NCBI RefSeq assembly: GCF_000403395.2
Contig: NZ_KE159676.1
Coordinates: 100,328 to 148,266 of the forward strand
DNA: 47,939 nucleotides
Direction of reading: 5' to 3'
DNA from: Anaerotruncus sp. G3(2012)
Lineage (GTDB): Bacteria; Bacillota; Clostridia; Oscillospirales; Ruminococcaceae
Below are positions 31,488-46,608 of the stretch, piece by piece (position 1 is the first letter of the stretch; every line of letters starts with the position of its first letter). Below the pieces are notes generated by a model, which saw only the letters and a program-made list of their open reading frames with translations, did no database searches and was not told the origin of the DNA. The position numbers and the translations under genes were made by a program.

Positions 31488-31561
31488 AGGAACAAAGATT
31501 GAAAAGCGGCCTGACCTTTTGCGTAATGCCGGGGCGGATGGTTGCCGAATGGAGGATAGCT

Positions 31562-32857
31562 ATGCAGAGGCGGCAGGGGAGGTTCTCCCGGACCCGGTTG
31601 ATTTTGCTGACCAGTTCGGTCATCACACTGATCTCGCAGGTTTATTTCAATGCGTTCTCCGACCAGTTCCGGCTTTCGCTCTCGGTGGTGCTCTTCCCGC
31701 TCCTGCTGCTTGCCGCAGGACGGGGGAAACTATTTATCGCGCCGAGCCTCACAACAGCGGGGATGGTCTTCGGATTCCGGATGGCACTCTGGGTGCTCGG
31801 CGGGAACGGAGAACTCAGCGAAGGCATCCGGCAGGTGGCCCCTGGCGCGCTTTTCTACCTCGCATATGGGCTGCTTTTCTCGGTCCTGATCCGGAACAAG
31901 CATACGGTGCGCATCCCGCGGTTGGCCGTGAGCATCTTTTTCTGCGATTTCATATCCAATCTGTTTGAAGTCTGGATGCGCGGCGAGCTGCATCTGAGCA
32001 GCTTTGACCGCACCTGCGCCTATCTGATGCTGGTCGCGCTGGCACGTACCCTGCTGGCAGGCGCGTTGCTCGCGATGGGGGAACAATATCGTTCCCTGCT
32101 CACCCGGGAGGAGCATGAGAACCGCTACCAGCGCCTGTTCCTGATGACCACTGGGCTGAAAAACGAGGTCTACTTTATGCGCAAGAACTCGGAAGAGATC
32201 GAAGCGATCATGAAAAATGCCTACCAGCTTTTTGAACGGTGCGCCGAACTGGGGCTGCCGGAGGAAACCCGGAGCCTGGCTTTGGCGATTGCGCGGGATG
32301 TGCACGAGATCAAAAAGGACTATATCCGGATCATACAGGGGATCGAAAAGGAGATCGACGAGCAGTATGACAATGAAACCATGCGGTTCTGTGACCTTTT
32401 GCAGATTCTCAAGGATGCGACCTACCGCCATCTCGATATGAAAGGGCTGGACATCTATCTTGACTTCCAGTGCGGGCAGGATTTCGTCCTGAAGGAGCAT
32501 TATTCCCTGATGGTTGTCTTGAAAAACCTTGTCAACAACGCATGTGAGGCGATCGAATCGGCCCACAGGAAGGGGAGCATCCATGTTTCGGAGTGGAAAG
32601 AGGGTCCGGATTTTCTTTTCCGGATCGAGGACAACGGGATCGGCATTGCGGAAAAAAATCTGCGGCGGATTTTCCAGATGGGGTTTTCCACAAAATTTGA
32701 TGAAAAGACCGGCAACATCTACCGCGGCGTCGGTCTTTCAGGGGTAAAAATTGTTGTCGAAGAGCAGTTTGGCGGAAGTTTGGAGGTAGAATCCACGCAG
32801 GGGGCCGGGACCGCATTCATCGTCCGGATTCCTGCGGATCGATTGGAGGGAGAATAA
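31562..32857 (+). CDS. Sensor histidine kinase, GlnK (YcbA)-like
   Basis: A 431-aa membrane kinase. Hydrophobic helices span about residues 10-170. A coiled/dimerisation region follows, with the likely phospho-acceptor His in the segment DVHEIKKDY. The ATPase domain has N-box VLKNLVNNACEAIE, G1 EDNGIGI and G2 GVGLSG. The ATG at 31562 has GGAGG 6 nt upstream. It is followed after 6 nt by its response regulator. The pairing with a YcbB-domain regulator and with glutamate genes downstream points to the Bacillus GlnK/GlnL type of glutamine/glutamate sensing (inference by family and context). Confidence 0.85.
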   Translation: MQRRQGRFSRTRLILLTSSVITLISQVYFNAFSDQFRLSLSVVLFPLLLLAAGRGKLFIAPSLTTAGMVFGFRMALWVLGGNGELSEGIRQVAPGALFYLAYGLLFSVLIRNKHTVRIPRLAVSIFFCDFISNLFEVWMRGELHLSSFDRTCAYLMLVALARTLLAGALLAMGEQYRSLLTREEHENRYQRLFLMTTGLKNEVYFMRKNSEEIEAIMKNAYQLFERCAELGLPEETRSLALAIARDVHEIKKDYIRIIQGIEKEIDEQYDNETMRFCDLLQILKDATYRHLDMKGLDIYLDFQCGQDFVLKEHYSLMVVLKNLVNNACEAIESAHRKGSIHVSEWKEGPDFLFRIEDNGIGIAEKNLRRIFQMGFSTKFDEKTGNIYRGVGLSGVKIVVEEQFGGSLEVESTQGAGTAFIVRIPADRLEGE

Positions 32858-32863
32858 AAGACG

Positions 32864-33703
32864 ATGGAAATCTATATCGTAGAGGATGACCTTTCGGTTA
32901 TCAACAACCTTGAGGAAATTATGGAACAGCATCAGCTCGGGAATATCTGCGGGGATTCGGGAGAGGAGGCACCGGATGTCTCCAGAATCATGGCGCAGAA
33001 CCCGGATATTATCCTGGTTGACCTCCTGATGCCCCAGAAGGACGGGATTCAGGTGGTCCGCGAGCTGCGGGAGCAGGGCTGCAAGGCAAAGTGCATCATG
33101 CTTTCCCAGGTCTCGGACAAGGAGCTGGTTGGGAAGGCCTACGATGCGGGGGTGGATTTCTTTATCAGCAAGCCGATCAACCTTATTGAGGTCAAATCGG
33201 TCATCAGCAATGTATCCCAGCAGATTCAGAACGAGAGGACCCTTTCCAACATCCGCAAGATGTTTCTTTCGGAGAAAACCGACGTAAAGGACCTGCGCCA
33301 GGAGATCGAAAGCCAGCATCTGCGTAAATTGCAGGGGATCCTGAACCAGCTCGGGATGTCGGGAGAAAAGGGGTGTGGGGATATCCTCCAGGTCTGTCAG
33401 TATCTTTACGAGAACCAGCTCCCGATTTCGCAGACTAGTGTCGGCCAGCTCTGCGAAACCCTCAGCGCCAGCCCCAAGAATATGGAGCAGCGGATCCGGC
33501 GCGCGATCGCGCAGGGGATGTCCAACCTCGCCCACCTCGGGATAGAGGATTTCATGAACGACACCTTTACCCGATATTCGGGGAGCCTGTTCCCGTTTGA
33601 GGAAATCAAGGCGGAAATGGACTTTGTACGGGGCAAACGCACCCGTGGAGGCAAGGTGAGTGTCAAAAAGTTCATTGATGGTTTGTTGATTTTTACCGAA
33701 TGA
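32864..33703 (+). CDS. Response regulator with YcbB/GlnL-type DNA-binding domain
   Basis: A 279-aa regulator. The receiver domain (1-~115) shows acidic EDD at the start, the phospho-acceptor Asp in IILVDLLMP and the conserved Lys in ISKPINL. The C-terminal ~150 residues match the YcbB domain (LRKLQGILNQLGMSGEKGCGDILQ and MEQRIRRAIAQGMSNLAHLGIEDFMNDTFTRY), the domain of B. subtilis GlnL. A GGAGGGAG ribosome site precedes the start. It probably activates gdhA and the TAXI transporter through the TGTAG repeats at 33754 and 35354. Confidence 0.9.
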   Translation: MEIYIVEDDLSVINNLEEIMEQHQLGNICGDSGEEAPDVSRIMAQNPDIILVDLLMPQKDGIQVVRELREQGCKAKCIMLSQVSDKELVGKAYDAGVDFFISKPINLIEVKSVISNVSQQIQNERTLSNIRKMFLSEKTDVKDLRQEIESQHLRKLQGILNQLGMSGEKGCGDILQVCQYLYENQLPISQTSVGQLCETLSASPKNMEQRIRRAIAQGMSNLAHLGIEDFMNDTFTRYSGSLFPFEEIKAEMDFVRGKRTRGGKVSVKKFIDGLLIFTE

Positions 33704-33753
33704 TAGGATTCCTGCATTTTGAAAAAATATTTTCCAAAAACATTGCAAACTGA

Positions 33754-33799
33754 TGTAGTATTTTGTAGGAATCTGTAGATGTTCCTGCATAATAGGAAC
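33754..33799 (+). promoter_or_regulatory. Phased TGTAG repeats and promoter of gdhA
   Basis: TGTAG occurs at 33754, 33764 and 33774, an exact 10-bp spacing. It is followed by TGCATAAT (-10 CATAAT at 33788-33793, with extended TG) and the inverted repeat GTTCCT (33781-33786)/AGGAAC (33794-33799). No good -35 is present; the repeats occupy its place, the layout of an activator-dependent promoter. The shared 10-bp periodicity resembles the TTTTGT-N4-TTTTTGT direct repeat I recall for B. subtilis GlnL. Confidence 0.65.
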
Positions 33800-33802
33800 A
33801 AC

Positions 33803-33852
33803 ACCTGAAGATTCAGAGGCTCCACCCTTTTCGGAGCCCGCTGAAATCAGGT
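33803..33852 (+). promoter_or_regulatory. Extended stem-loop in the gdhA leader
   Basis: Nested arms: ACCTGA (33803-33808)/TCAGGT (33847-33852), TTCAG (33812-33816)/CTGAA (33841-33845), GGCTCC (33818-33823)/GGAGCC (33833-33838). They form one long interrupted hairpin near the mRNA 5' end, without a T-run, so a stability or regulatory role is more likely than termination. Confidence 0.5.
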
Positions 33853-33918
33853 TGAATTATGTAATTTGTGCAATTCTCTATACAGAACGCACAAAGAATA
33901 TTTGGGAGGCTGATTATC

Positions 33919-35268
33919 GTGAGCAAGTATGTTGAAAGAGTTCTCGAAGAAGTCAAGAAGAACCATCCGTCTGAGCCCGAATTCCAGCAGACCGTAGAGG
34001 AAGTTCTCTCCTCTCTGGCCCCGGTTATCGACAAACATCCGGAGTATGAGAAGGCTGGCCTGCTCGAGCGCATGGTCGAGCCGGAGCGGATTATTTCGTT
34101 CCGTGTCACCTGGACCGACGACGCGGGCAAAGTCCAGGTCAACCGTGGATATCGCGTCCAGTTCAACGGCGCAATCGGTCCCTTCAAGGGCGGCCTGCGG
34201 TTCCATCCCTCTGTAAACCTCTCGGTTATGAAATTCCTTGCTTTCGAGCAGTCCTTCAAAGACAGCCTGACCACCCTGCCGATGGGCGGCGCAAAGGGCG
34301 GTTCCGACTTCGACCCCCGCGGCAAGAGCGATGCGGAAGTCATGCGCTTCTGCCAGGCGTTCATGACCGAGCTGTATCGCCACATCGGTCCGGACGTTGA
34401 CGTCCCGGCGGGCGACATGGGCGTTGGTGCTCGCGAGATCGGCTATCTGTATGGTCAGTACCGCAGAATCCGCGGCGCATTCGAGAATGGTGTACTTACC
34501 GGTAAGGGCCTGTCCTTCGGCGGCAGCTTGGTCCGTCCGGAAGCGACCGGTTACGGCGCTGTCTATTATACCGCTGAGGTCTTCAAGCACGAGGGCGATA
34601 CCTTCGAGGGCAAAACCTTTGCACTGGCCGGCTTCGGCAACGTTGCATGGGGCGCTGCGAAGAAGATCGCAGAGCTGGGCGGCAAAGCAGTCACCCTGTC
34701 CGGCCCGGATGGCTACATCTATGATCCCGACGGCATCACCACCGAGGAGAAGTTCAATTACATGCTCGAGATGCGTGCAAGCGGCCGCGACAAGGTCCAG
34801 GATTATGCGGACAAATTTGGCTGCCAGTTCTTCCCGGGCGAGAAGCCTTGGGGCCAGAAGGTTGACGTTATCATGCCCTGCGCAACCCAGAACGACGTCA
34901 ACATGGAGCAGGCAGAGAAGATCGTTGCCAACGGCATCAAATACTACATCGAAGTTGCCAACATGCCCACCACCAATGATGCTCTGGTCTATCTGATGAG
35001 CCAGAAGAACATGATTGTTGCTCCGTCCAAAGCGGTCAACGCAGGCGGTGTTGCGGTTTCCGGTCTCGAGATGTCCCAGAACAGCGGCAGACTTGCATGG
35101 GCAGCAGAAGAGGTTGATGAGAAGCTCAAGAGCATCATGAAGAACATCCACGATTCTTCGGTTGCTGCTGCTGAGGAGTTCGGCCTGGGCTATAACCTGG
35201 TTGCAGGTGCAAATATTGCCGGCTTCAAGAAGGTTGCTGATGCGATGCTCGCTCAGGGTATCTTCTAA
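33919..35268 (+). CDS. gdhA: Glutamate dehydrogenase, NADP-type, hexameric
   Basis: A 449-aa enzyme interconverting glutamate and 2-oxoglutarate plus ammonia. The substrate domain carries FKGGLRFHPSVN and the catalytic Lys in GGAKGGSDFDPRG. The dinucleotide fold has LAGFGNVAWGAA. Length and sequence fit the NADP-dependent hexameric class. The GTG at 33919 has GGGAGG 9 nt upstream and gives the normal N-terminus MSKYVERV. It is flanked by a GlnK/GlnL-like system and a TAXI-TRAP transporter; codon bias looks like that of a highly expressed gene. Confidence 0.96.
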   Translation: MSKYVERVLEEVKKNHPSEPEFQQTVEEVLSSLAPVIDKHPEYEKAGLLERMVEPERIISFRVTWTDDAGKVQVNRGYRVQFNGAIGPFKGGLRFHPSVNLSVMKFLAFEQSFKDSLTTLPMGGAKGGSDFDPRGKSDAEVMRFCQAFMTELYRHIGPDVDVPAGDMGVGAREIGYLYGQYRRIRGAFENGVLTGKGLSFGGSLVRPEATGYGAVYYTAEVFKHEGDTFEGKTFALAGFGNVAWGAAKKIAELGGKAVTLSGPDGYIYDPDGITTEEKFNYMLEMRASGRDKVQDYADKFGCQFFPGEKPWGQKVDVIMPCATQNDVNMEQAEKIVANGIKYYIEVANMPTTNDALVYLMSQKNMIVAPSKAVNAGGVAVSGLEMSQNSGRLAWAAEEVDEKLKSIMKNIHDSSVAAAEEFGLGYNLVAGANIAGFKKVADAMLAQGIF

Positions 35269-35305
35269 ACCAAAACAGATGTAGAATGCCCGATTCAGGG
35301 CGGTT

Positions 35306-35346
35306 GGGGGGATCTGCTCTGGCAGATCCCCCCGCTTGTTTTTTCA
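35306..35346 (+). terminator. Terminator of gdhA
   Basis: A perfect 12-bp GC-rich stem (35306-35317 with 35322-35333) with a TCTG loop, followed by GCTTGTTTTTT, about 35 nt past the stop. Confidence 0.93.
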
Positions 35347-35353
35347 GTTTTTT

Positions 35354-35398
35354 TGTAGAAATCTGTAGAAAATGCAGGATTTTTTTCAACTCCTGCAT
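35354..35398 (+). promoter_or_regulatory. Phased TGTAG repeats upstream of the TAXI receptor gene
   Basis: TGTAG at 35354 and 35364 (10-bp spacing), with a degenerate third copy (TGCAG, 35373). The block TTTTGTAG-A/G-AATCTGTAGA is nearly identical to that upstream of gdhA. It is followed by an inverted repeat, ATGCAGGA (35372-35379)/TCCTGCAT (35391-35398). It lies about 60-100 bp upstream of the promoter -35. Confidence 0.6.
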
Positions 35399-35458
35399 CT
35401 GCTTTTCTGAAAATATGAAAAAACTTTTAAAAAGTTATGGAATTAACACAAATTTTGA

Positions 35459-35516
35459 TTGCTATTTTTCCGGTTATCATGTATAATATGATCTGGTGAT
35501 TCTTACGACAAGAATC
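35459..35516 (+). promoter_or_regulatory. Promoter and 5' hairpin of the TAXI-TRAP operon
   Basis: TTGCTA (35459-35464), 17-bp spacer, TATAAT (35482-35487). The predicted mRNA begins almost directly with a perfect hairpin, GATTCTT (35498-35504)/AAGAATC (35510-35516), of the kind that stabilises abundant transcripts. Confidence 0.75.
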
Positions 35517-35550
35517 ATTGAAAAACGCAACTTGATAGGAGGAAATTGAA

Positions 35551-36597
35551 ATGAACAAGAAACTGCTTGGCATCATTGCGATGCTGATGGTGGTGGCGCT
35601 GGCGCTGACAGCGTGTGGCGGCTCGTCCGCTCCGGCTTCGTCTGCGGCCCCTGCTGCTTCCAGTGAGGCTCCGGCTTCGTCCGCAGCACCCGCACCCGCA
35701 CCCTCTGCACCGGCTGCTGGCTCGGTCTCGATGGTTATGGGTACCGGCGGTACAACGGGTACATACTACGCTTACGGCGGTGTGCTCGCAAACATCCTGA
35801 ACGGCAAGATGTCTTCCGCGCAGATCAACGTCCAGTCGACCGGCGCATCCAAGGCAAACATCTTCCTGATCGACGACAAAGAGGCTGACCTCGCGATCGT
35901 CCAGAACGACGTTATGGACTATGCGTTCAACGGTTCTGACCTCTTCGCAGAGGATGGCGCTGTCACCAGCTTCTCGAGCGTTGCAGGCCTGTATGCTGAG
36001 GTTTGCCAGATCGTTGCAAGCGGCGACATCAAGTCGATTGCAGACCTGAAGGGCAAGAGAGTTTCCGTTGGCGACGCTGGTTCGGGCGTTGAGTTCAACG
36101 CACGTCAGATCCTTGAGGCTTATGACATCTCCTTCGACGACATCGAGGTCAACAACCTTGGTTTCGGTGATTCGGCGGATGCGATCAAAGACGGCAAGAT
36201 CGACGCGTTCTTCTGCACCGCGGGTGCTCCGACCACTGCAATCGTTGAGCTGGCAACCACCAAGGCGATCAACCTGCTTGAGGTTGACGACGAGCATGCT
36301 GCCAAGCTGATCGAGTCCTATCCGTTCTACACCAAGTACAGCATTCCCGGCGGCTCCTACGGCGGCGTTGATGCTGATGTCCAGACTGTCGCGGTCAAAG
36401 CGACCCTGATCGTTTCCAACGATGCTTCCGAAGATGCGATCTACGAGCTGACCAAAGCGATCTTTGAGAACAAAGACGCGATCACCGAGAGCCACGCGAA
36501 GGGCGCAGAGCTTGACACCGCCTATGCGGTTGAGGGCATCTCCGTACCGTTCCACCCCGGCGCTGAGAAGTACTTCAAAGAGGTAGGCGCGCTGTAA
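35551..36597 (+). CDS. TAXI-family TRAP transporter solute receptor
   Basis: A 348-aa lipoprotein. The lipobox LTAC is at about residues 18-21, followed by an Ala/Ser/Pro linker to about 55 and then the TAXI domain, recognised by VMGTGGTTGTYYAYGGVLANIL at its start and GVEFNARQILEAYDI in the middle. AGGAGG lies 8 nt upstream of the ATG. A characterised TAXI receptor from Thermus binds glutamate/glutamine; together with gdhA next door, glutamate is the likely but unproven substrate. Confidence 0.93.
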   Translation: MNKKLLGIIAMLMVVALALTACGGSSAPASSAAPAASSEAPASSAAPAPAPSAPAAGSVSMVMGTGGTTGTYYAYGGVLANILNGKMSSAQINVQSTGASKANIFLIDDKEADLAIVQNDVMDYAFNGSDLFAEDGAVTSFSSVAGLYAEVCQIVASGDIKSIADLKGKRVSVGDAGSGVEFNARQILEAYDISFDDIEVNNLGFGDSADAIKDGKIDAFFCTAGAPTTAIVELATTKAINLLEVDDEHAAKLIESYPFYTKYSIPGGSYGGVDADVQTVAVKATLIVSNDASEDAIYELTKAIFENKDAITESHAKGAELDTAYAVEGISVPFHPGAEKYFKEVGAL

Positions 36598-36641
36598 TCT
36601 TTCGGCTCGTTCAAAAAAATAGGAAGGTGACAGCGGCAATA

Positions 36642-37091
36642 ATGCTCATCGTTATTGCCGCTGTCTTTCTTTCAATCTGCCGTAGCGGGTACTATCTGAC
36701 ACTGCGGGACGGGAAAACGGGTGGAATCTATTCCCGATACCGGGTATCGGATGGCGACAGATTTTCGGTGGGTTTCATCCATTCGGTCAATAAAAGCCCG
36801 CTGACCGACGTGTATGAAATCCGTGGTCACAAAATCTATGTGGTGGAAACGATTTATTATGGGTTTGGCGCTGGCGTCCAGACCGAAATTTTAGAAGGAC
36901 AGACCCTAACTTATGGCGAACATGGGGAGATGATCGTCTCGGGCTTCGACCTTGAGATGCCGCATCTTTCCTACATTGTGGGGACGGTATCCGATCACGT
37001 CCTCACGCTGAACGGGCAGGAAATCAGCCTGCGGGAGCTATGCGGCAAAAACAGCACCGTAGCGTTTTCCTGCGAATGGAATTTATTTTAG
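36642..37091 (+). CDS. DUF1850 protein of the TAXI-TRAP operon
   Basis: A 149-aa protein. An N-terminal membrane helix is followed by a compact beta-rich domain (FSVGFIHSVNKSPLTDVYEIRG, then YYGFGAGVQTE), the DUF1850 pattern. Such genes usually sit between TAXI receptors and their permeases, as here. The ATG at 36642 is preferred because an in-frame GTG at 36627 lies directly against the ribosome site AGGAAGGTGA. It probably assists transport, mechanism unknown. Confidence 0.85.
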   Translation: MLIVIAAVFLSICRSGYYLTLRDGKTGGIYSRYRVSDGDRFSVGFIHSVNKSPLTDVYEIRGHKIYVVETIYYGFGAGVQTEILEGQTLTYGEHGEMIVSGFDLEMPHLSYIVGTVSDHVLTLNGQEISLRELCGKNSTVAFSCEWNLF

Positions 37092-37113
37092 ATGCGCAAA
37101 GGAGGGACCGGCT

Positions 37114-39096
37114 TTGTTTGATTCTGATAAGAAAAAAAACGAGATGGAAACCAACGCTGCAGCGCCGGACACTTCGCCTCAGGCGGAGGATGCTTCCACC
37201 GGAACGGCGGAAGATGTAGACGCGATTATGAAAAAGTTTGACCGCGAGTCAAACGTGCGTTTTTATGAGGGCGTCCCCAAAAAGATTGTCCGTTATGCGC
37301 TTGCTGGCTTTTCACTTTTGATGGTTTATATGAACCTGTTTGCCAACTGGGATGAACGTGTACGCCGTTCTCTGTTTGTGGGAATTGTCATCCTGTTGGT
37401 ATTCACAGTTTTCCCGATGAAAAAGGGCAACCTCAGACGCAACTATATTCCTTGGTATGATATTCTTCTTGCGGTGCTCGGTGGTGGAAGCTTTTTCTAC
37501 TATGTCTTTAACTTTGACACCATCATCAAACACGCCACCCGTATCTCTCAAATGGAGATTCTAATTGGTGTGATTGGTATTCTGGTGCTGGTGGAAGCCT
37601 GTCGCCGTGTTGTCGGTATCCCGATTTTGATTGTTGCAAGCTGCTTTGTAATCTACGCGTTTGCGTCAGGTAAAACACTCAAAACCGTTATCTACAATCT
37701 CTATTATACCACCGGTGGTGTCATCGGTACTCCGATCGGCGTCTGCTCGACTTATATCGTTCTGTTCATCATCTTTGGTGCATTCCTCGAGGCCACCGGC
37801 ATTTCCGAGTTCTTCATTCAGGCGGCAAACTCGATCGCAGGCGCTTCGACTGGCGGCCCGGCAAAGGTTGCGGTTATCTCGAGCGCCCTCTGCGGCATGG
37901 TTTCCGGCAGCTCGGTTGCGAACACGGTTACGACCGGTAGCGTGACCATCCCGCTGATGAAAAAGACCGGTTACCGCGGGGAATTCGCGGGTGCTGTTGA
38001 AGCGGCTTCCTCAACGGGAGGACAGATCATGCCGCCAATCATGGGCGCGGCAGCGTTCCTGATGGCGGAAATGGTTGGTGTTCAGTACGGTACGATCGCG
38101 GTCAAGGCGATCCTCCCTGCGTTCCTTTACTTTGCGGGTATCTTTATGATGGTTCACCTCGAGGCGAAAAAGCTCGGCCTGAAGGGTCTGGATAAGGAAA
38201 CCCTGCCGAAGTTCGGCAAGCTGTTCCTCCAGAAGGGGTATCTGCTGCTTCCGCTGATTATCCTCATCGGGATGGTTATGAAAGGCTTCACCATGTCCCG
38301 CGCAGCGGTCATCGCGACGCTGGTTGCAATCGCGGTCAGCATGATTAACAAGGATACCCGTATGACCCCGTCCGGTTTTGTGGATGCGTTGGAGAGCGGC
38401 GGCAAGAGCACCCTTTCGGTTGCGGTTGCGTGCGGCATCGCGGGCATTATCGCGGGCGTCGTCACGATGACTGGTCTGGGCCAGATCCTGATTACAGCGA
38501 TCGTTTCGGTCGCAGGCGATGTGAAGATCATTGCGCTCTTCCTGACGATGCTCACCTGTATTGTTCTGGGCATGGGTGTTCCGACTACCGCAAACTATAT
38601 CATCATGGCGACCACCTGCGCACCGATCCTTGTCACCGGTATGGGCATCAACCCGATCTCGGCACATATGTTTGTGTTCTACTTCGGTATCGTTGCAGAT
38701 ATCACCCCGCCGGTTGCGCTGGCAGCTTATGCTGGTTCCGCAATCGCACGCTCCAATCCGATGAAAACCGGTATCAATGCTTCCCGCCTGGCGATTGCAG
38801 CGTTTATCGTCCCGTACATCTTCGCGCTCAATCCGGCGATGCTGTTCATTGATACCAACGCGATTGGTGTTATCCAGATCATTGTTACTTCGTTGATCGG
38901 TATCTTTGCAGTTGCTGCTGGCCTGGAAGGTTTCGTCTTTAAGGATATGCCGATGTGGCAGCGGTTGATTTCCGCGGCCGGCGGACTTTGCCTGATCTAT
39001 CCGGGTCTTGCTACCGACATCATCGGTCTTGCGGTCATCGCACTGATTTTGGTCCCTCAATATCTCGCTTCTAAAAAAATGACATCTGCGGCTTAA
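37114..39096 (+). CDS. TRAP transporter fused permease
   Basis: A 660-aa membrane protein combining the small (DctQ-like, about 60-190) and large (DctM-like, about 190-640) TRAP permease units with about 16 helices. The conserved large-unit stretch GPAKVAVISSALCGMVSGSSVANTVTTGSVTIPLMK is present. The start is TTG at 37114, supported by an excellent AAGGAGGG site 7 nt upstream. Acidic, polar N-terminal extension of about 50 residues. It works with the TAXI receptor as a sodium- or proton-coupled importer. Confidence 0.95.
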   Translation: MFDSDKKKNEMETNAAAPDTSPQAEDASTGTAEDVDAIMKKFDRESNVRFYEGVPKKIVRYALAGFSLLMVYMNLFANWDERVRRSLFVGIVILLVFTVFPMKKGNLRRNYIPWYDILLAVLGGGSFFYYVFNFDTIIKHATRISQMEILIGVIGILVLVEACRRVVGIPILIVASCFVIYAFASGKTLKTVIYNLYYTTGGVIGTPIGVCSTYIVLFIIFGAFLEATGISEFFIQAANSIAGASTGGPAKVAVISSALCGMVSGSSVANTVTTGSVTIPLMKKTGYRGEFAGAVEAASSTGGQIMPPIMGAAAFLMAEMVGVQYGTIAVKAILPAFLYFAGIFMMVHLEAKKLGLKGLDKETLPKFGKLFLQKGYLLLPLIILIGMVMKGFTMSRAAVIATLVAIAVSMINKDTRMTPSGFVDALESGGKSTLSVAVACGIAGIIAGVVTMTGLGQILITAIVSVAGDVKIIALFLTMLTCIVLGMGVPTTANYIIMATTCAPILVTGMGINPISAHMFVFYFGIVADITPPVALAAYAGSAIARSNPMKTGINASRLAIAAFIVPYIFALNPAMLFIDTNAIGVIQIIVTSLIGIFAVAAGLEGFVFKDMPMWQRLISAAGGLCLIYPGLATDIIGLAVIALILVPQYLASKKMTSAA

Positions 39097-39111: not shown

Positions 39112-39145
39112 AGGCGCGTCCCTGCTCAAAGTCAGGGACGCGCCT
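39112..39145. terminator. Bidirectional terminator
   Basis: A perfect 13-bp stem (39112-39124 with 39133-39145) and 8-nt loop. On the + strand CTCTTTTGTTTTT follows, ending the TRAP operon. On the - strand TTTTTGAC follows, ending the convergent three-gene cluster. Confidence 0.93.
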
Positions 39146-39239: not shown

Positions 39240-40304
39240 TCATTGATCGCAAAATGCAGCAAGCTGCTGGGAAAAACATGCGATCCGCTGATCGATGCCG
39301 GGAAGTTTACAGGCATCCCCGGCACTGTTGGCGGTTTCCAGCATCGAAAAACGGGCGGGCAGATAGAAGGTCTTGTTCATGTTAAGCGCACAGATCAACT
39401 GCTTGGCAATGATATCGTTGCCCGAATACCCGGAAACTGCGATCGCAAAAAGCGCTTTGTCGTAGAACCGCACCTGACGGAACAAAGCTGTCAGCCGGTT
39501 GATAAATGCGGTGAGGTTGGCGGAAAGCGCGTCGTTATAGTTAGGACAGAGCATGACCAATGCATTGGCCTGCCGGATGGCGGGAAAGACCTCATCCACC
39601 ATCACGCCGCCGTAAAAACATCCACCCTGCTCGCCAAAATGCAGGCACATGGTATAGGGGCAACCGGAGCAGTCGGAAATTTCCCCGTTACGCAGGTTGA
39701 ACTCGCTGATTTCGCACCGGTCACCAATCTGTTCCCGAACCCGGCGCCAGAGCGCGAGGGTATTGGATGTCTTGTGACTGGAGGCGTGTACTGCAAGCAG
39801 CTTTGGACGTTCAAACCGCGGCTGGCTGAAGCCGCAGACCCGCTCGACCAGCTCCCGCGCCGACCGCAGATAGGCACCAAACCGGTCGGTTTCCATCGTG
39901 CGGGCAAGGATGGTGAAATTGCCAAGCGAGCCGGTCCCTTCGACCAGCGGCCGTCCCGGGAAGGTACAGCCCGCAAGGTTGGCAGTAAATACCAGCTCGC
40001 TCCCGATGGATTTGGTGTAAAGCTCGCTTGCGCCGTCCACCAGGACGCCGCCAACCGACCCCTCCAGACATCCGGGATGCTCCCGCATCCATTGCAGCAT
40101 GGCAAAGTATTCGAGATTGATGCCGGTTTCCCCCACCATAACCGCAAACAGAATCTTTTTCCCCTTCAGTGGATGAAGCGCAGCGGCTGTCTCGATCGTC
40201 GATACGGCAGACCCTTCGAGCGCATAAGCCAACACTTCGGAAAGGCGGCGGGCGGTTTCCGGATGTTCGCATCTCGGGCGGATCAGCACCAGAGGCTGGT
40301 TCAT
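39240..40304 (-). CDS. Flavodoxin-like NAD(P)H-dependent oxidoreductase
   Basis: A 354-aa cytoplasmic protein. The N-terminal ~165 residues (KKILFAVMVGETGINLEY) are unassigned but contain a possible degenerate flavodoxin-like fold. The C-terminal ~190 residues match NADPH-dependent FMN reductases: KLLAVHASSHKTSNTLAL, a Cys cluster in DCSGCPYTMC with a further Cys, and ALVMLCPNYNDALSANLTAFINRL. The last gene of the cluster, 17 nt after the dehydrogenase-like gene. It likely uses FMN and a pyridine nucleotide; substrate unknown. Confidence 0.82.
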   Translation of the reverse strand: MNQPLVLIRPRCEHPETARRLSEVLAYALEGSAVSTIETAAALHPLKGKKILFAVMVGETGINLEYFAMLQWMREHPGCLEGSVGGVLVDGASELYTKSIGSELVFTANLAGCTFPGRPLVEGTGSLGNFTILARTMETDRFGAYLRSARELVERVCGFSQPRFERPKLLAVHASSHKTSNTLALWRRVREQIGDRCEISEFNLRNGEISDCSGCPYTMCLHFGEQGGCFYGGVMVDEVFPAIRQANALVMLCPNYNDALSANLTAFINRLTALFRQVRFYDKALFAIAVSGYSGNDIIAKQLICALNMNKTFYLPARFSMLETANSAGDACKLPGIDQRIACFSQQLAAFCDQ

Positions 40305-40321
40305 TCCGAAACGCCTCCCCG

Positions 40322-41560
40322 TTAAATCACCGTTGCAAGATGGTCCGCCGCATACTGAATCCGCGCGAACAGTGGGTCAGGAATCGAAGGAAGCAGCTCG
40401 GTTTCCAGACCTGTGGCCGTATAGCGGTTTTTGACGCCCATAAAAATGCCGCCCAAAAAGACCGACCCGCAATGCCACTCGCCGCGCAGCATCAGCAGCA
40501 GGGAGAGCGCCCCGGAGGAGAGCGCGGGCGCCACATACGGTTTGAAGCCGATCTCCCGCATCTTGAGATTGGCGGTGACAACCAAGTGAGTCAGCTCCTG
40601 CGAGAGTGCATCGTCGTAATGCGCAAGCGAATTCGCCACCACAAGCTCCTGACCGTGTGGGCCGAACGACCGTCCTTCGGTAAGGAAACTGGCGAACCGC
40701 GGGTCGCGCTTGGCGAAATAGGCGGCGCGGGCGTTCATCACCCCGAGGCCAAACCCCTGGATCTGTTCAGGGCGCAGGCCCTGACCGTCAAACTCCCCGG
40801 CCTCGTTCTGGTTGCTGGCGAGGTAGGCGGTTTTGGCGAGCGGGTCTACCGGGTCACTCACTGCGGCCCACAGCCCTTTGAATTTCTGCTCCCGGGCCAG
40901 CTTGGCGTAATGGGCGACGATCTTCGAGTTGGTCTCGAACTGCGCCATCCGCACGTCCTTGACCCCAGACCCGACCGGAGGAATCCCCTTGGATGCGACA
41001 AATACAAACAGGTCACAGTCGAACAGCCGGTCCGGGGGGATCACTTCAACTTCGGGCATCGCGTCGTAAGCCCAAGGCAGAGAAATCTGGTTCATCTCAA
41101 ATTCCCAGCGGGCAGTGGTCTTTTCCGAAAGGTCGCAGATGCCGATCGAGGAGATCACATCCTGCCCGAGCAGCTTCAGTCCGGTTAAAAGGGTGCTTCC
41201 CACATCCCCAATCGCAAGGATATTGACCCGTTTTTTCCGTTTGTCCGGCGTGCAGGAGATGAGTGACTCCCACTGTGGGTGCCGGTAGTTGACCGCACGC
41301 AGCCTGCCTTCCTGAATCAGGCGTCCGAGCAGCGGGTCCGGGTCGCCGTCCGGCAGGCGGGAGGCATCCAGCCAGCGGATGCTCTCCGGCTGGGCGAGCT
41401 GTCCCGGATGCCCGACCGAGAACGAAGCGCGGCAGGACTGCGGGTCAGCCTCAAACAGGAAAACCGCTTTGGGTGCATCCGCAGGCGGCTCTACAGCGGG
41501 AAACGGCAGATCATGACGTGCACTGCAAAGCAGATGTCCGTCCATTTTGTAATAAAACAT
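40322..41560 (-). CDS. Lactate/malate-dehydrogenase-like Rossmann protein
   Basis: A 412-aa protein. An N-terminal ~110-residue domain of unknown role comes first, then an LDH/MDH-like fold: VNILAIGDVGSTLLTGLKLLG (NAD site), SDPVDPLAKTAY (substrate loop region) and SFGPHGQELV, which holds the catalytic-type His. The usual LDH Asp-x-x-Arg helix reads VMNARAAYF, so Arg is kept but the proton-relay Asp appears lost. It may therefore act on an unusual substrate or only bind NAD(H). The ATG at 41560 is 94 nt after the giant gene; AAAGGAG lies 12 nt upstream. Confidence 0.82.
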   Translation of the reverse strand: MFYYKMDGHLLCSARHDLPFPAVEPPADAPKAVFLFEADPQSCRASFSVGHPGQLAQPESIRWLDASRLPDGDPDPLLGRLIQEGRLRAVNYRHPQWESLISCTPDKRKKRVNILAIGDVGSTLLTGLKLLGQDVISSIGICDLSEKTTARWEFEMNQISLPWAYDAMPEVEVIPPDRLFDCDLFVFVASKGIPPVGSGVKDVRMAQFETNSKIVAHYAKLAREQKFKGLWAAVSDPVDPLAKTAYLASNQNEAGEFDGQGLRPEQIQGFGLGVMNARAAYFAKRDPRFASFLTEGRSFGPHGQELVVANSLAHYDDALSQELTHLVVTANLKMREIGFKPYVAPALSSGALSLLLMLRGEWHCGSVFLGGIFMGVKNRYTATGLETELLPSIPDPLFARIQYAADHLATVI

Positions 41561-41653
41561 AGTTAATATACGCTCCTTTATGAAAATGTTCCGCCTTTCG
41601 ATCCCGCAGCCTTTCAAAAAATCACCGAAGGGTTTGGGATACAAGGCAGCTCT

Positions 41654-44600
41654 TCAGATCATCAGCTTGCGGGTACGCATCAACATTTCGAGGTCGTTTT
41701 CGAGATAGACCGATGCCGAAAGGTTGGGGTCATAGGCCATACAGGCGCCTTTGTCCGGGCAGAGCGGCAGAATGACCGCCTCGGAAAGCCGGTTCAAGGT
41801 AAGGTTGCGCCCGAACTGTTCGCGGTATTCCGACTCGAGCACCATTAGGATGTCCCGCGAATTCTCAATGCAGCAGCGGGAAAACTCGAACGCCGCCAGG
41901 TGGGAGCAGTCGGAGACAAAGAACGGGGTCGAGTAGGGAAGAATCCGGTTAACCGACGGAAGCAGCCCTGCAACCGGCATATTTTCCCGCCGGACGGTGT
42001 CACCGCCAATAAACGGGTAGAGGGTGGATTCCACGAACCAGTATTTCAGATTCGGCACATAGTAGATGCAGTCAACCGGACGGTTGCGCATCGCCATCAA
42101 ATCACGCCCGCGGCCCGAGAGCACCCCCACCATCAGCATCCTGATGCGGATATCCTCCTTGATAAAGAGCGGGTCGAGCGCCTGCATCCGGTATCCTTCG
42201 TGCAGCAGGCTGTCGACCAGGATCACCGGACGGTTGAAGGATTTGATCGTCCGGACCTGGCTCTCGATCGGGGAATAGTAGGGGAATGCTTCGATGCAGT
42301 TGTCTATGATATCGGGGGTGTAGACCTTATCGGTATGGAGCGTTTTCGTGACCGTATTTGGCACTACCGTACCGCGCAGAATCTTGCCGAACGGCACACA
42401 CATATTCTTTCCGAGCCTGCGGGGGAAGGTCTGGGTATTTGAAACCCCGTTGAGTGCGGTAATCTTGTCTACCATCCGGTGGTGGATCATGTCCGCCGAG
42501 AGGGAGAGCACCAGACTGCCCGGTTGAATCTGGGTGGTGGCGAGCTGGAGCCGGTAGTGCGCGGCCTTGATGGCGTCCAGCACCCGCCGGTTGGAGCGGA
42601 ACGGCTCTTTGATGGTGGTTTCAAGGTTCTGGATCAGGACAAGCGGCGCACGCATATCGACCACATAAAGTGGGCTTGGCGCCTTGTCCGAACATGGTGC
42701 ACAGACAAATCCCTGCCGTTCGAGCATCTCATGGATGAACGAAGGCGAACCGCTTCCGTAGGAGGAAAAGACCGCATAAGTGCAGCCCTCCGCAAGCGAG
42801 GTTGCGAGCGCCTCGGTGAGCAGGAGCTGGGGCAGGTCGTAGGCAGTTTCGGTGATCTGGGTATAGATGCCGGTGAGCAGCAGAATCTTCCCAGAGGCGC
42901 GGCGGCGGACATAATCCGCGTAATCATCGCGGTGCAAGGCGAAAAACAGATCGGAGCTGGTGATCTGCCGCAGGCTGGCATACCCGATGATCTGCCTGCG
43001 CTTGCCGAGATGCCGGAGCAGGATCAAGGTATCCCCATTCTCTGAGATGCTCTGGCAGATATGCTCAACCCCTGCCCGGTCGGCCAGAACCGAGCGCTCC
43101 AGTTCGGCCAGCAGTTCGGGCTGTGGCTCATCCTCTCGCTGGAACAGAATCTCATCGGTATGGATCACCGGCTTATACTGCGGTTCACGCAGATAGAGGC
43201 TGTTCTGGTAGATGAACTCCTGCACTGCCGGGTCAATCAGGTTGGAGATGTCGCGGTTGAGGTCGATGTTTTCACGGATACGGGTCGAACTGATGTCCTC
43301 CAGATGGGGCGGCAGGGTCAGCTCGACCACCTTGCCGGTGATGAGCGAGAGCGCCGCGCGGTCATGCTCTCCCTCGTCGCCCTCCTCGCCGCTGATCCGC
43401 CGGAACACGATATGGTTCATCGAATGGATCGAATCCGCAGACGGAGCCGCACGATAGGAGGAGGCGTTGCGCACCACGTCGCTGCCGACCACAATATAAA
43501 GCTCCTTGCTGGGGAACATCCCGCGCAGGCGGCGCAGGTCAGCGGGGTTGGCGATGTTGACCGGCACATCATCCGGGAACAGCTGGACATGCAGCTCGTC
43601 GGCAACCGACATGCTGACAATCTGCCGCCGGATCAGGTGGGGCTGGGTCTTTTTGGACCAGGAAAACTCGTCTATCGCGAGGTAGACCTCGAACCCGAGG
43701 TCGCGGATCGCCCGCACGATCCCCTTATGTGAGAGGGTGAACGGGTCGAAGGTCCCGGGGAAGAAGGCGACTTTCTGCCGCTGCTCGAAGTGAAAGCTGC
43801 CGTAGTCGATCCGGTGGAGTGCAATAAACCGGTAGATGTGAGAAAGGGCGGCTGCACGATAGAAGAATGCCAGACCGCCGCCCGGGTTCTCGGTAATCAG
43901 AAAGACCAGCTTTTTATAGCAGTGGGAGAACAGGTTGGTTTTTTCCTCGGGGGAAAGGTTGGATGTGCCGAAGATCGACTTGCCGATGACCAGCAGCGCT
44001 TCCTGACGCACCGACTCACGATAGTTGGCAAGCCCGTCGAGCAGCAGCCCAAGCAGGTGCTGGCGGCGTGCTTCGAAGGTATGCTCGCTCTGTACAAACC
44101 GCTCCTGATAAACCGGGTAGTGCTCGAGCAGGACGCCCAGCGTATTGAGCGAGACCGCAACAATCCAGTCGTTCGAGCTGCCGAGCAGTTCCTCCAGCCG
44201 GACGACCAGTTCATCCAGCTCCTTAGGATGCAGATAAAGTGCCAGCTCGCCCAGATAGTTGGGGATGTACTTCGAGAACTCGTATTCGCCGACCTCCAGC
44301 CCCTTGGCAAGCTCGACCGCGATCTCGTTGCGCTGGTCGAGCGAGAGCAGCGGCATGACCCGGAGCAGCGCGGAGCCGGCGTCATGCCGGACAACCACCC
44401 ATTCACTGACTTTGATCAGGTTGGAAAGGTGGGTCGCAATGTGCAGGATATGTTCCCGCTGTCCATGGGTGAGCTGGTCGAGCAGCACCTCGATGTTGAT
44501 CGACTTGATAATCCAGGGGGTGGCCGCCTTGAGGTTGTCCAGATAGATGTCACTGAACACATCCTGGCTGTAAAGGATCTCCTCCTGCATACTGGTGCCG

Positions 44601-46510
44601 AGGCCGAGGCTTTGCAGGGCCTTATACTGCAAAAACAGCATCGGTATATTCTGCTGGCAGTCCAGCCCGCTGATCATCTCCCCGAGCATTCCTATGCAGG
44701 GATGTTCCCGGTCGAGCGCCGACGCAAGCTGGGTGAGGAACCGCATTGCCGCAGAGGCCAGGCGGATTTCCCCATCCAGCTTGAGGAAATAGCCTGCAAA
44801 TGCGATCAGCCGTTCGATCAGTTCCGGGCTGCAAAGGGTATGCGGAAGATAAAGCATGGTATCGAGCAGCGCAAAGGCGGACCCGTCATCGTACCGCTCC
44901 GGATTGTTGTAATACCGGGTAAACCGCCCCAGAAAGACCGGTGCGTCATCCTCCCGGCAGGTGTCCAGCGCGGACCCGACAATGATCTTGACCGTATAGC
45001 CGATCCGGCTTTTTTGCTGGGCAGTGATCTTGTGGTCGGGGAAGATCAGCATTTCAAGGTATTTTTCCCAGAGGCTGAACGGGGTCTGTTCCGTGGGGTC
45101 GATCACCGCATCCTTGGGAAGCTCCTTTCGGTAGCCCATCCGGAACTGTGCGATAATCATGCCCATCAGCCCTGCGGCCTGACGCCGGATATCCCCCTCG
45201 CGGTGCATGAGCAGTTCGTACAGGAAGGAGAGCGCCTGCGTTTTCTGGTGAGGGCTGAGATAGGTGGAATACTCTTCGAAGATATCCAGATAGGCGCGCA
45301 GGCGTTCCCAGTTTTTCTCGCTGCGGGCCGCTTCGAGGATGTTGCCAAACTGACGGTTGCTGCTCAGGTTGTGCATCAGGCCCAGGTTGTGCTCAACCGA
45401 AAGCAGTACCAGCTTGTCGATCGTCTCGTCCGCATCCATCAGCGAGACGTTTTTCTGGGGAGGCGGCGAGAGCGGCCGGCCGGCTAGGTCAAAGTCCACC
45501 CCCAGCTGGCGCAGATAGTTTTCGAAGTCGTGCAGCTTGTCATAGACAAACCGATAACGGCGGCGCTTGGCCTCGTCCACATTGTCCAGTTTGTCCAGAA
45601 TTACCTGGAAGGAGGCATCCAGATCATAGATCGTCGTGATCTCCCGGCCTTCGCTGTCCCGGCTCTGCTTGACCCGGAAGTCCGCATAGATCAGCGCCAG
45701 AGATTCGGCCGACAGGTTTTCGATCTCGAGGTCCCAGGTCGAATGGTTGGCGGCGATATGGCCGATCGTGGGGATGTCATGCGCAAGGAACCAGCGGTCG
45801 GTGTAATAGTAGTGCAGATAGGGTACCCGCTCCCCCGGCTTGCAGCCAAATTTCCCGAGATCGTGCCCCGCAGCAGCGCCCGAGACCAGTGCAAGGTCTA
45901 CCGGTATGCCCGCTTCATGCAGCCCATAGGCAACTGTCATGGCGACATGGTGCACCCCGACCACATGTTCCATCAGGCAGAACGGGGTCACCTCCCGGGC
46001 GATCCGCAGAAGCTCATAGACATACTCCTCCCGGAAGATTTTCAACAGGCGCCGGTAATCCTGTGCATGGTCGCATCCGGTGAGATCCTCCTCGGGGACA
46101 AACCGGAAATCGTACAGACAGTCAAACGGCAGGGCCTGTTTTTCGTAGGCAAAAAGCACCTGCAAAAGCTGAAGCAGGAACCGGGCGCCGTCGTTGTGTT
46201 TTTTGGCACGCGCAGCAAATTCCGCATCCGGAAACATCAGGTTGCGGGCAAACAGGAAGGTAAACTCGAGCCATCCTTCCTCCGGCTCCGGGGAGAGCCG
46301 GTTCAGCAGATCGACAACAAGGCTGGCAACCTTCCCGCAGTTCAAGCGTTCCTGGATCGGCAGAATCTGTCCCAGCAGGGTGGGCCAGTCGGCATCGTGC
46401 ATCAGGGCGGTCATCGCCTTTTTGGTTATCGAGAGCCGCTGCAGGAACTCGCGTCCACACATCGCCTGGGAAAGATCGAGCGCTGCCTGTCGGATCAATT
46501 TCTTGGACAT
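41654..46510 (-). CDS. Giant multidomain protein: HD hydrolase, helical repeats, NMNAT-like, possible GNAT and PRTase
   Basis: A 1,618-aa soluble protein. An HD domain at about 180-300 shows HH at 187-188, His216-Asp217 in AGHDLGKFG, and HIAANHS. A long helical HEAT-like region spans about 370-905. A nucleotidyltransferase domain at about 913-1105 has the NadD/PPAT start VAFFPGTFDPFTLSHKG (917-929) and the ISSTRIR motif (1073-1079). About 1140-1290 resembles an acetyltransferase (LLLTEALATSLAEG). About 1300-1618 contains VILVDSLLHEGYRM, reminiscent of a PRPP-binding loop. The nucleotidyltransferase has TLSH where TxGH or HxGH is usual. GGAGG lies 7 nt before the ATG. It heads a - strand cluster with the two oxidoreductase-like genes. 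Role unknown; a pyridine-nucleotide connection is inferred. Confidence 0.88.
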   Translation of the reverse strand: MSKKLIRQAALDLSQAMCGREFLQRLSITKKAMTALMHDADWPTLLGQILPIQERLNCGKVASLVVDLLNRLSPEPEEGWLEFTFLFARNLMFPDAEFAARAKKHNDGARFLLQLLQVLFAYEKQALPFDCLYDFRFVPEEDLTGCDHAQDYRRLLKIFREEYVYELLRIAREVTPFCLMEHVVGVHHVAMTVAYGLHEAGIPVDLALVSGAAAGHDLGKFGCKPGERVPYLHYYYTDRWFLAHDIPTIGHIAANHSTWDLEIENLSAESLALIYADFRVKQSRDSEGREITTIYDLDASFQVILDKLDNVDEAKRRRYRFVYDKLHDFENYLRQLGVDFDLAGRPLSPPPQKNVSLMDADETIDKLVLLSVEHNLGLMHNLSSNRQFGNILEAARSEKNWERLRAYLDIFEEYSTYLSPHQKTQALSFLYELLMHREGDIRRQAAGLMGMIIAQFRMGYRKELPKDAVIDPTEQTPFSLWEKYLEMLIFPDHKITAQQKSRIGYTVKIIVGSALDTCREDDAPVFLGRFTRYYNNPERYDDGSAFALLDTMLYLPHTLCSPELIERLIAFAGYFLKLDGEIRLASAAMRFLTQLASALDREHPCIGMLGEMISGLDCQQNIPMLFLQYKALQSLGLGTSMQEEILYSQDVFSDIYLDNLKAATPWIIKSINIEVLLDQLTHGQREHILHIATHLSNLIKVSEWVVVRHDAGSALLRVMPLLSLDQRNEIAVELAKGLEVGEYEFSKYIPNYLGELALYLHPKELDELVVRLEELLGSSNDWIVAVSLNTLGVLLEHYPVYQERFVQSEHTFEARRQHLLGLLLDGLANYRESVRQEALLVIGKSIFGTSNLSPEEKTNLFSHCYKKLVFLITENPGGGLAFFYRAAALSHIYRFIALHRIDYGSFHFEQRQKVAFFPGTFDPFTLSHKGIVRAIRDLGFEVYLAIDEFSWSKKTQPHLIRRQIVSMSVADELHVQLFPDDVPVNIANPADLRRLRGMFPSKELYIVVGSDVVRNASSYRAAPSADSIHSMNHIVFRRISGEEGDEGEHDRAALSLITGKVVELTLPPHLEDISSTRIRENIDLNRDISNLIDPAVQEFIYQNSLYLREPQYKPVIHTDEILFQREDEPQPELLAELERSVLADRAGVEHICQSISENGDTLILLRHLGKRRQIIGYASLRQITSSDLFFALHRDDYADYVRRRASGKILLLTGIYTQITETAYDLPQLLLTEALATSLAEGCTYAVFSSYGSGSPSFIHEMLERQGFVCAPCSDKAPSPLYVVDMRAPLVLIQNLETTIKEPFRSNRRVLDAIKAAHYRLQLATTQIQPGSLVLSLSADMIHHRMVDKITALNGVSNTQTFPRRLGKNMCVPFGKILRGTVVPNTVTKTLHTDKVYTPDIIDNCIEAFPYYSPIESQVRTIKSFNRPVILVDSLLHEGYRMQALDPLFIKEDIRIRMLMVGVLSGRGRDLMAMRNRPVDCIYYVPNLKYWFVESTLYPFIGGDTVRRENMPVAGLLPSVNRILPYSTPFFVSDCSHLAAFEFSRCCIENSRDILMVLESEYREQFGRNLTLNRLSEAVILPLCPDKGACMAYDPNLSASVYLENDLEMLMRTRKLMI

Positions 46511-46579
46511 AGGGTTTCCTCCATCTCCTTACCGGGCCTGGGGGATGCCCGGCAAAATTTCAGTTGATCTTACAGTCAT

Positions 46580-46608
46580 ATTATGCACCCATTTACAAGG
46601 TTTGGCAA
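46580..46608 (-). promoter_or_regulatory. Promoter of the giant-protein gene cluster
   Basis: Read on the - strand: TTGCCA (46603-46608), 17-bp spacer, CATAAT (46580-46585). The leader of about 60 nt includes a CCGGGC/GCCCGG hairpin just before the ribosome site. The rest of the gap 46609-46775 holds only short hairpins without T-runs. Confidence 0.65.

Follow-up and report, generated by a model that had tools for sequence, protein, structure and literature searches.

A three-gene cluster of anaerobic bacteria built around a giant protein with a NadD-type nucleotidyltransferase domain, and its link to glutamate metabolism

The locus

We analysed a stretch of 47,939 nucleotides (the window) from the 3.62-Mb genome of Anaerotruncus sp. 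G3(2012) (contig NZ_KE159676.1, positions 100,328 to 148,266), in which three adjacent genes encode a giant protein (termed BIG here), a protein of the lactate/malate dehydrogenase (LDH/MDH) superfamily (LDH-like) and a protein of the FMN reductase family (FMN_red). This trio is a real and widespread unit, one coordinated system, and an excess of glutamate dehydrogenase (GDH) genes among its neighbours links it to glutamate metabolism. The features of the cluster are as follows.

41654-46510, minus strand: BIG, 1,618 aa with five regions (open reading frame and homologues)
40322-41644, minus strand: LDH/MDH-superfamily protein with an extra N-terminal region of ~110-130 residues (open reading frame with a TTG start)
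39240-40304, minus strand: FMN-reductase-family protein with an extra N-terminal region of ~160 residues (open reading frame and Pfam)
39112-39145, no strand assigned: hairpin terminator of 13 pairs, between the converging FMN_red and TRAP transporter genes

The three open reading frames, all in one direction, stand as they were placed in the first-pass annotation of this DNA, which had also proposed a terminator at one end, convincingly provided by the hairpin, and a single promoter at the other. The latter proposal is not supported, since three promoter-like sites occur in the region against 2.9 expected by chance, and the one at 46608-46580 is no better than chance. According to relatives, the likely start of LDH-like is the ATG at 41560, which is preceded by AAAGGAG. 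Full-length homologues with colinear partners exclude a chance open reading frame or artefact. Above Pfam cut-offs, BIG matches CTP_transf_like only, LDH-like nothing and the third protein FMN_red; none of the three exceeds any NCBIfam cut-off.

Distribution and linkage of the trio

BIG is present in 10/297 genomes of the family and 32/391 genomes of the class (~8%), and a scan of genome contigs confirmed at least 573 relatives from 591 pattern matches, the best 80 of which are the named loci referred to below. LDH-like, searched for independently in the same 391 class genomes, was found in 31, all of them within the 32 that carry BIG; the sole BIG genome lacking it (G499) is 84% complete and lies in 320 contigs. 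Moreover, at the 102 of 121 loci with at least 4.5 kb of sequence downstream of BIG, LDH-like is present in 93 and both partners, on the same strand, in 87 (the 121 loci are not dereplicated, and some are one contig, for example L062 = L141 and L063 = L102). This co-occurrence and linkage uphold the earlier suggestion of a coordinated three-gene system, as does the finding that the trio stays intact across several families and in three Chloroflexota-labelled bins.

The hosts are anaerobes, among them Oscillibacter, Pseudoflavonifractor, Lawsonibacter, Flintibacter, Fournierella, Enterocloster, Clostridium fessum and Anaerovorax odorimutans, and the full trio also occurs in the three bins, which are labelled Chloroflexi, Flexilinea or Anaerolineaceae (L153, L157, L163). 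The BIG tree of 55 (quick, midpoint-rooted and with long-branch warnings) places the three Chloroflexota rows as one clade nested among Bacillota, their next relatives being a bin of unclassified Clostridia and a row from Lawsonibacter (SH-aLRT 100 and 99). This placement suggests a transfer of the cluster between phyla, unless the bins share contamination. The plasmid records gave one match, in a 2.6-Mb Acetoanaerobium noterae record that has no gene annotation there.

Both partners are not in place at 15 of the 102 loci. Neither is found on the stretch at six (L132, L139, L151, L152, L161 and L171, from Oscillibacter, Dysosmobacter and two unclassified Clostridia bins), and LDH-like occurs without FMN_red in place at six others, namely L071 (where the stretch ends inside FMN_red), L109 (where FMN_red lies on the other strand), L114, L144, L170 and L174. 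The remaining three are second copies of BIG (L079, L087 and L094, in genomes G477, G520 and G628, respectively) with no LDH-like or FMN_red gene on the stretch fetched; the other BIG of G477 and G628 adjoins both partner genes, and in G520 the contig ends just after it. All three second copies have a decayed NMNAT motif (ISST changed to ASPA or ILSC, or deleted) and intact HD and phosphoribosyltransferase (PRTase) motifs. Since the tree groups them in a single clade (SH-aLRT 100, quick tree), the loss of the NMNAT motif counts as one event, and three independent losses are excluded. These copies suggest that the nucleotidyltransferase is important at loci with the partner genes and that the HD and PRTase regions are able to act by themselves; the six loci with neither partner nearby, which keep the motif, speak against such a dependence.

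Domains of BIG

The five regions of BIG, all on the minus strand, were assigned as follows.

45476-45979, minus strand: HD metal domain, ~residues 178-345 (ligand residues)
43796-45448, minus strand: HEAT/ARM-type helical repeats, ~residues 355-905 (AF2 model and Foldseek)
43181-43789, minus strand: NadD-type nucleotidyltransferase domain, ~residues 908-1110, with PGTFDPF[TS]LSH and ISSTRIR (Pfam and hhalign)
42641-43177, minus strand: GNAT fold, ~residues 1112-1290 (AF2 model and Foldseek)
41657-42640, minus strand: PRTase-like domain and C-terminal helices, ~residues 1291-1618 (motif and hhalign)

By profile, it is certain that the nucleotidyltransferase domain belongs to the NadD lineage: residues 916-1081 match Pfam CTP_transf_like with 32.4 bits (cut-off 21), and hhalign aligns the domain with ten NadDs of relatives over 190 columns (99.5%, E 9e-23). 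The nucleotidyltransferase relationship that had been read from the NMNAT/PPAT-type start and the ISSTRIR motif is thus clear. Conservation was scored in an alignment of 122 BIG sequences that includes the window, retains near-copies and extends down to ~33% identity to the window. H928 is present in 122/122, and I1073, S1074, S1075 and R1079 each in 120/122; the first His of HxGH is replaced by T (63/122) or S (59/122), the second being invariant. T at the first position is also found in CoaD. A strict test finds the NMNAT motif kept in 118/122, and the four failures are the three second copies and L133, which differs by one residue (FDA for FDP).

Canonical NadD is excluded, given that the family cut-offs are missed (NF000840, 39.5 bits against 150; TIGR00482, 39.4 against 112.45) and that the SYTxxTL (Y and T) and Trp positions conserved in the ten aligned NadDs, which bind nicotinate mononucleotide (NaMN) in NadD, are missing from BIG. 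Further, the host has its own NadD (L003; TIGR00482, 140.4 bits, cut-off 112.45) and its own YqeK (L205; TIGR00488, 115.6 bits, cut-off 70.15). Considering both the host enzymes and the lost positions, a plain role in NAD synthesis is unlikely.

BIG is of the dimetal HD type as judged by its ligands: H182, H216, D217, H233, H256 and D277 are identical in 122/122 sequences and, matched by motif and by eye, parallel in order the six residues identical in 23/23 YqeK proteins of relatives (H11, H40, D41, H74, H100 and D118). By eye, YqeK D29 and K44 (22/23) correspond to BIG D205 and K220. A review (PMC8177086) assigns the six ligands to dimetal YqeK and also to HD oxygenases, and describes an Arg before the first His in HD phosphatases. 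Arg stands three residues before the first His in 22/23 YqeK; the BIG counterpart, three residues before H182, is Thr in 113/122, and Arg is absent there (the five commonest residues account for all 122). Canonical YqeK is excluded by this absence. Profile comparison of the HD region with YqeK reached 2.0% (other HD-region comparisons, 0.1-1.4%), and since the unrelated GNAT region scored higher against YqeK (6.8%), hhalign lends the HD assignment no support. Likewise, an HD fold is absent among the 50 matches listed when the model of residues 1-905 is compared with the PDB by Foldseek, and the HD metal motif of the first-pass annotation is therefore sustained by its invariant six-ligand pattern and not by the fold search. 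The same model (AF2, mean pLDDT 91.3) has as its best Foldseek PDB matches helical-repeat proteins or complexes such as Kap121 and PP2A (PP2A-A), bearing out the ~530 residues of helical repeats reported previously.

The AF2 model of residues 1100-1618 (pLDDT 91.9, pTM 0.91) predicts a clear GNAT fold: the best Foldseek PDB match has E 2.7e-6, and the 50 matches listed are by title acetyltransferases or their complexes, except for one titled only 'bacterial toxin'. Against viral models, the named matches are mainly acetyltransferases, with one phosphoribosyltransferase-domain protein (E 1.5e-3). The RxxGxG/A acyl-CoA loop was not seen, by eye, in the consensus of 69 sequences, so that use of acyl-CoA is doubtful. 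The C-terminal region carries a PRTase-like consensus, VILVDDLLHxGxR (VILVDSLLHEGYR in the window copy), in which the TGxT ending of PRTases is replaced by xGxR, and a nearly invariant PNTVTKTxHT[DE]K. As for the acids of the phosphoribosyl pyrophosphate (PRPP) motif, D1433 is present in 122/122 and D1434 in 114/122 (Ser in the window). Pfam Pribosyltran is touched by 15/69 homologues (best E 0.0026), the window's own copy giving no match. Comparison of the region by hhalign with ten PRTase sets or sequences gave 0.8-39.5%, the top value falling at the PRPP motif, against 0.8% with YqeK, 0.1% with NadD and up to 6.8% for other unrelated pairs. Accordingly, where two further enzymatic regions had been suspected, the GNAT fold stands, its CoA loop does not, and the PRTase-like assignment is the weaker of the two.

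The partner proteins

LDH-like falls under the Pfam cut-off (Ldh_1_N, 19.5 bits against 27), and a profile built from 30 of its sequences retrieves solved LDHs (E 1.5e-7). Invariant in the 30 are the GDVG of the Rossmann glycine motif, R232, D264, M303, R306 and H330. We take H330 to be the catalytic His, R306 the substrate Arg and R232 the loop Arg of LDH; M303 occupies the position of the relay Asp and D264 that of the Asn of NPVD. The His-Asp relay of L-lactate/malate dehydrogenase is consequently not kept, confirming the earlier description of an LDH/MDH-like protein without its relay Asp. The extra N-terminal region is missing from L091 and L092. The third protein, described previously as flavodoxin/FMN-reductase-like, matches Pfam FMN_red with 66.5 bits, and C212, C215, C220 and C229 (pattern CX2CX4CX8C) are invariant in 28 sequences. 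No useful match came from profile searches of the PDB with the FMN_red alignment, with BIG residues 1-905 or with its residues 1100-1618.

Association with glutamate dehydrogenase

After dereplication at 80% BIG identity, 73 loci remain, and 11 of these have a GDH near BIG, up to 10 kb upstream or 12.5 kb downstream. For the 1.14 Mb of flank 0.42 would be expected, a Poisson estimate in which the 73 loci (<80% identity) count as independent and GDH occurs once per 2.7 Mb. Of eight control queries, which covered six other genes, seven found 0 cases and the other found 1, although short control queries are possibly less sensitive than the long GDH query. The adjacent GDHs include different subfamilies in a similar place (34% identity at L098, 70% at L073), and among the 11 one is placed upstream (L149) and one convergently (L061). 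Since a GDH-family member is found in 330/391 genomes, GDH presence per genome was dropped as evidence, and only adjacency and GDH type were used.

Regarding type, the window GDH is the only PF00208 match in the host genome at E <= 1e-20, and the window-GDH query finds one GDH in each of 11 genomes of its genus (L239-L249). The two that carry BIG share a GFGNV-type enzyme (99% identical); in the nine that lack BIG the enzyme is of the GSGNV type, 55-59% identical to the former. Thus the single-copy GDH of this genus differs in type according to whether the cluster is present, as though it had been displaced. Within the family, 7/10 BIG genomes and 34/287 without BIG have a GDH that shares 65% or more identity with that of the window (Fisher p 5e-5); four of the seven belong to one genus and two to another. 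Across 38 BIG genomes, 19 have a G[FY]GNV-type GDH (15 F, 4 Y) and five only a GSGNV type at that level.

The genes beside the trio in the window are the following.

31499-32857, plus strand: GHKL-type histidine kinase, GlnK-like only by its position beside a YcbB-type regulator
32864-33703, plus strand: response regulator with a YcbB (GlnL) domain
33868-35268, plus strand: GDH of the GFGNVAW type
35551-39096, plus strand: TRAP transporter, comprising a TAXI-type binding protein (NMT1_3), a DUF1850 protein and a DctM membrane protein

These genes (31499-39096) converge on the trio and are probably a locus for the sensing, uptake and breakdown of glutamate. Published work describes a response of Bacillus subtilis YcbA-YcbB (GlnK-GlnL) to glutamine (PMC2743287) and glutamate-specific binding by a TAXI protein of Vibrio cholerae (PMC11574862). 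The order kinase, regulator, GDH recurs downstream of FMN_red and co-directional with it at L062/L141 (one contig), L068, L101, L111, L121 and L125, and a GlnK/GlnL-like pair is present in 5/73 dereplicated loci. A pooled Pfam scan of 202 neighbours (part of all neighbours; the best 25 of 113 and of 109 families) has HATPase_c as the most frequent among the matches listed (6/101 downstream), with YcbB at 4/101.

Two further observations concern the surroundings of the cluster. L071 and L072 come from two genera within a single family; in both, a glutamate synthase split into three genes separates BIG from LDH-like, with an ammonium transporter (AmtB) on the other strand (L071:7918-13236 and L072:12443-17646; names by Pfam for L072 and for one L071 protein). 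In the window, a serine recombinase gene (29596-31083; Resolvase/Recombinase domains) adjoins the glutamate locus and might be the sign of an island that is, or once was, mobile.

Interpretation

We propose, tentatively, that the trio is one metabolic module in the glutamate/ammonia metabolism of anaerobes, with BIG as a nucleotide-assembly station; this is possible, and far from assured. The NadD-type domain would transfer an adenylyl or other nucleotidyl group to a phosphorylated partner other than NaMN, giving an NAD-like dinucleotide or a nucleotide-tagged metabolite. The PRTase-like domain may make or bind the ribosyl-phosphate half, the dimetal HD domain would break or alter the product, and the HEAT repeats could hold the domains and partner proteins. 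LDH-like (with a Rossmann-type site, the His and two Arg residues kept and the relay altered) and the flavoprotein with its four cysteines may act on the product as a redox pair, using or completing it. Here we infer each chemical step and the identity of the product, building on the observed unit, the folds and lineages (that of HD by its ligands only), the motifs, the co-occurrence of LDH-like and the GDH excess. A narrower form, in which the trio produces a hitherto undescribed NAD-like dinucleotide and employs it as redox cofactor or second messenger in glutamate/ammonia metabolism, with HD destroying it, is unlikely.

Several observations weigh against the module. Six of the 80 named loci keep an intact NMNAT motif without LDH-like or FMN_red nearby, and five have LDH-like without FMN_red in place. 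Within BIG, the GNAT domain, lacking its CoA loop, may be inert, and the PRTase assignment, with the altered PRPP motif, is weak. Turning to the glutamate link, no GDH is near in 62/73 dereplicated loci; five of the 38 BIG genomes have only a ~35% GDH relative and nine none at E <= 1e-60 (six of these nine still have a PF00208 match). The 11 adjacent GDHs are mixed (8 G[FY]GNV, 2 GSGNV and 1 GLGNV), and NCBIfam names the window GDH NADP-specific (684.9 bits, cut-off 536), contrary to the GFGNV motif, which would mark NAD-specific GDH (from the Clostridium symbiosum enzyme). Considering that GDH types are mixed in BIG genomes, no one type is required; the link is with GDH in general, and is neither with one type nor a dependence.

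The closest rival is a protein-tagging switch resembling GlnD, which we regard as doubtful. There the nucleotidyltransferase would tag GDH or the LDH/FMN partners, HD would remove the tag, the PRTase-like and GNAT domains would sense metabolites and HEAT would bind protein. The HEAT scaffold agrees with it, the altered active sites of the PRTase-like and GNAT domains suit sensors, some loci have nitrogen/glutamate neighbours with a GlnK/GlnL-like pair, and the second copies lose NMNAT and keep the HD and PRTase motifs; yet GDH is adjacent at only 11 of the 73 loci, the constant partners are LDH-like and FMN_red and not GDH, and NMNAT/NadD-type folds are, to our knowledge, small-molecule enzymes and not protein taggers. 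Alternatively, the cluster might be a specialized unit for synthesis, salvage or proofreading of NAD, keeping NAD(H) supplied or clean under high GDH flux. We consider this distinctly unlikely given the loss of SYTxxTL, of the Trp positions and of the HD phosphatase Arg, the presence of NadD and YqeK in the host, and an LDH-like protein that would be left without an obvious job. The pyridine-nucleotide system of the first-pass annotation is partly supported: its NadD-lineage domain stands, and a pyridine nucleotide is a conjectural substrate. The NadD lineage and the six HD ligands shared with YqeK nevertheless point that way, as do the LDH-like and FMN_red families, which use pyridine nucleotides; and NadD fused to an HD domain (YqeK) exists in mycoplasmas, where a proofreading role has been proposed (PMC9426524).

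It is quite improbable that BIG is a structural or sensing scaffold with mostly degenerate domains, leaving only LDH-like and the flavoprotein enzymatic, for instance on a 2-oxo acid such as 2-oxoglutarate. The GNAT domain without a CoA loop, the altered PRPP motif, and the altered LDH relay beside a retained R232, R306 and H330 could be so explained; HD ligands kept in 122/122 and the NMNAT motif in 118/122 sequences, down to ~33% identity to the window, could not readily be. An anti-phage or conflict system is hardly to be credited, and was excluded as a candidate because the three proteins match 0 PADLOC families (3/3 negative); six peptide patterns of BIG matched 4 stretches in IMG/VR, none of which encodes a relative, and the partners are colinear and of metabolic type. 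What speaks for it is a patchy distribution with likely transfer (the nested Chloroflexota-labelled clade) and the nearby serine recombinase.

Relation to known systems

The five-domain architecture and the trio have no match in Pfam, NCBIfam or PADLOC, and nothing relevant was found in open-licence PMC papers; the domain order of BIG and the trio are thus new with respect to the libraries and literature searched. This unstudied unit is carried by hundreds of gut and other anaerobic bacteria, including many gut genera, and sometimes stands next to genes of glutamate breakdown; it thereby suggests a nucleotide-based system, hitherto undescribed, that acts in glutamate metabolism. If a dedicated nucleotide cofactor or signal is indeed made, the trio would add a new branch to the NAD-type chemistry of the gut microbiome, and glutamate metabolism would offer an experimental handle; if it is regulatory, it would fill a missing control point of amino-acid metabolism in Clostridia.

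LDH-like resembles its superfamily in GDVG and in H330, R306 and R232, which we take for the catalytic His, the substrate Arg and the loop Arg, and departs from it in the change of the relay Asp to Met and of the NPVD Asn to Asp and in its extra N-terminal region. Iron-sulfur flavoproteins and FMN reductases share with the third protein the FMN_red domain and a four-cysteine stretch; the classic cysteine spacing of iron-sulfur flavoproteins is, however, CX2CX2CX4-7C and not CX2CX4CX8C, the ~160-residue N-terminal region is additional, and binding of a [4Fe-4S] cluster and of FMN is putative. BIG differs from the HD dimetal oxygenases (PhnZ, TmpB, MIOX) in occurring in anaerobes and in the distance to the last Asp, which at 21 residues looks YqeK-like (YqeK, 18). 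Common to them are the lack of Arg at the phosphatase position and the H...HD...H...H...D set, as given in PMC8177086.

BIG and the NadD-YqeK fusions or gene pairs both combine a NadD-lineage nucleotidyltransferase with a six-ligand HD domain (H/HD/H/H/D), in the fusions within one chain. Unlike these, BIG has its own domain order, ~530 residues of HEAT-type repeats in between, GNAT and PRTase-like domains and two linked partner genes, and it lacks SYTxxTL/Trp and the HD phosphatase Arg. GlnD (uridylyltransferase/uridylyl-removing enzyme) likewise joins a nucleotidyltransferase to HD in one chain and acts in a nitrogen context, but its nucleotidyltransferase fold is unrelated, its partners are others, and no ACT domains were noticed in BIG. 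Finally, BIG residues 146-277, in the HD region, weakly resemble by NCBIfam profile (19 bits, cut-off 315) the latter half of the DVU_1551 family NTP transferase, which is perhaps another nucleotidyltransferase-HD fusion.

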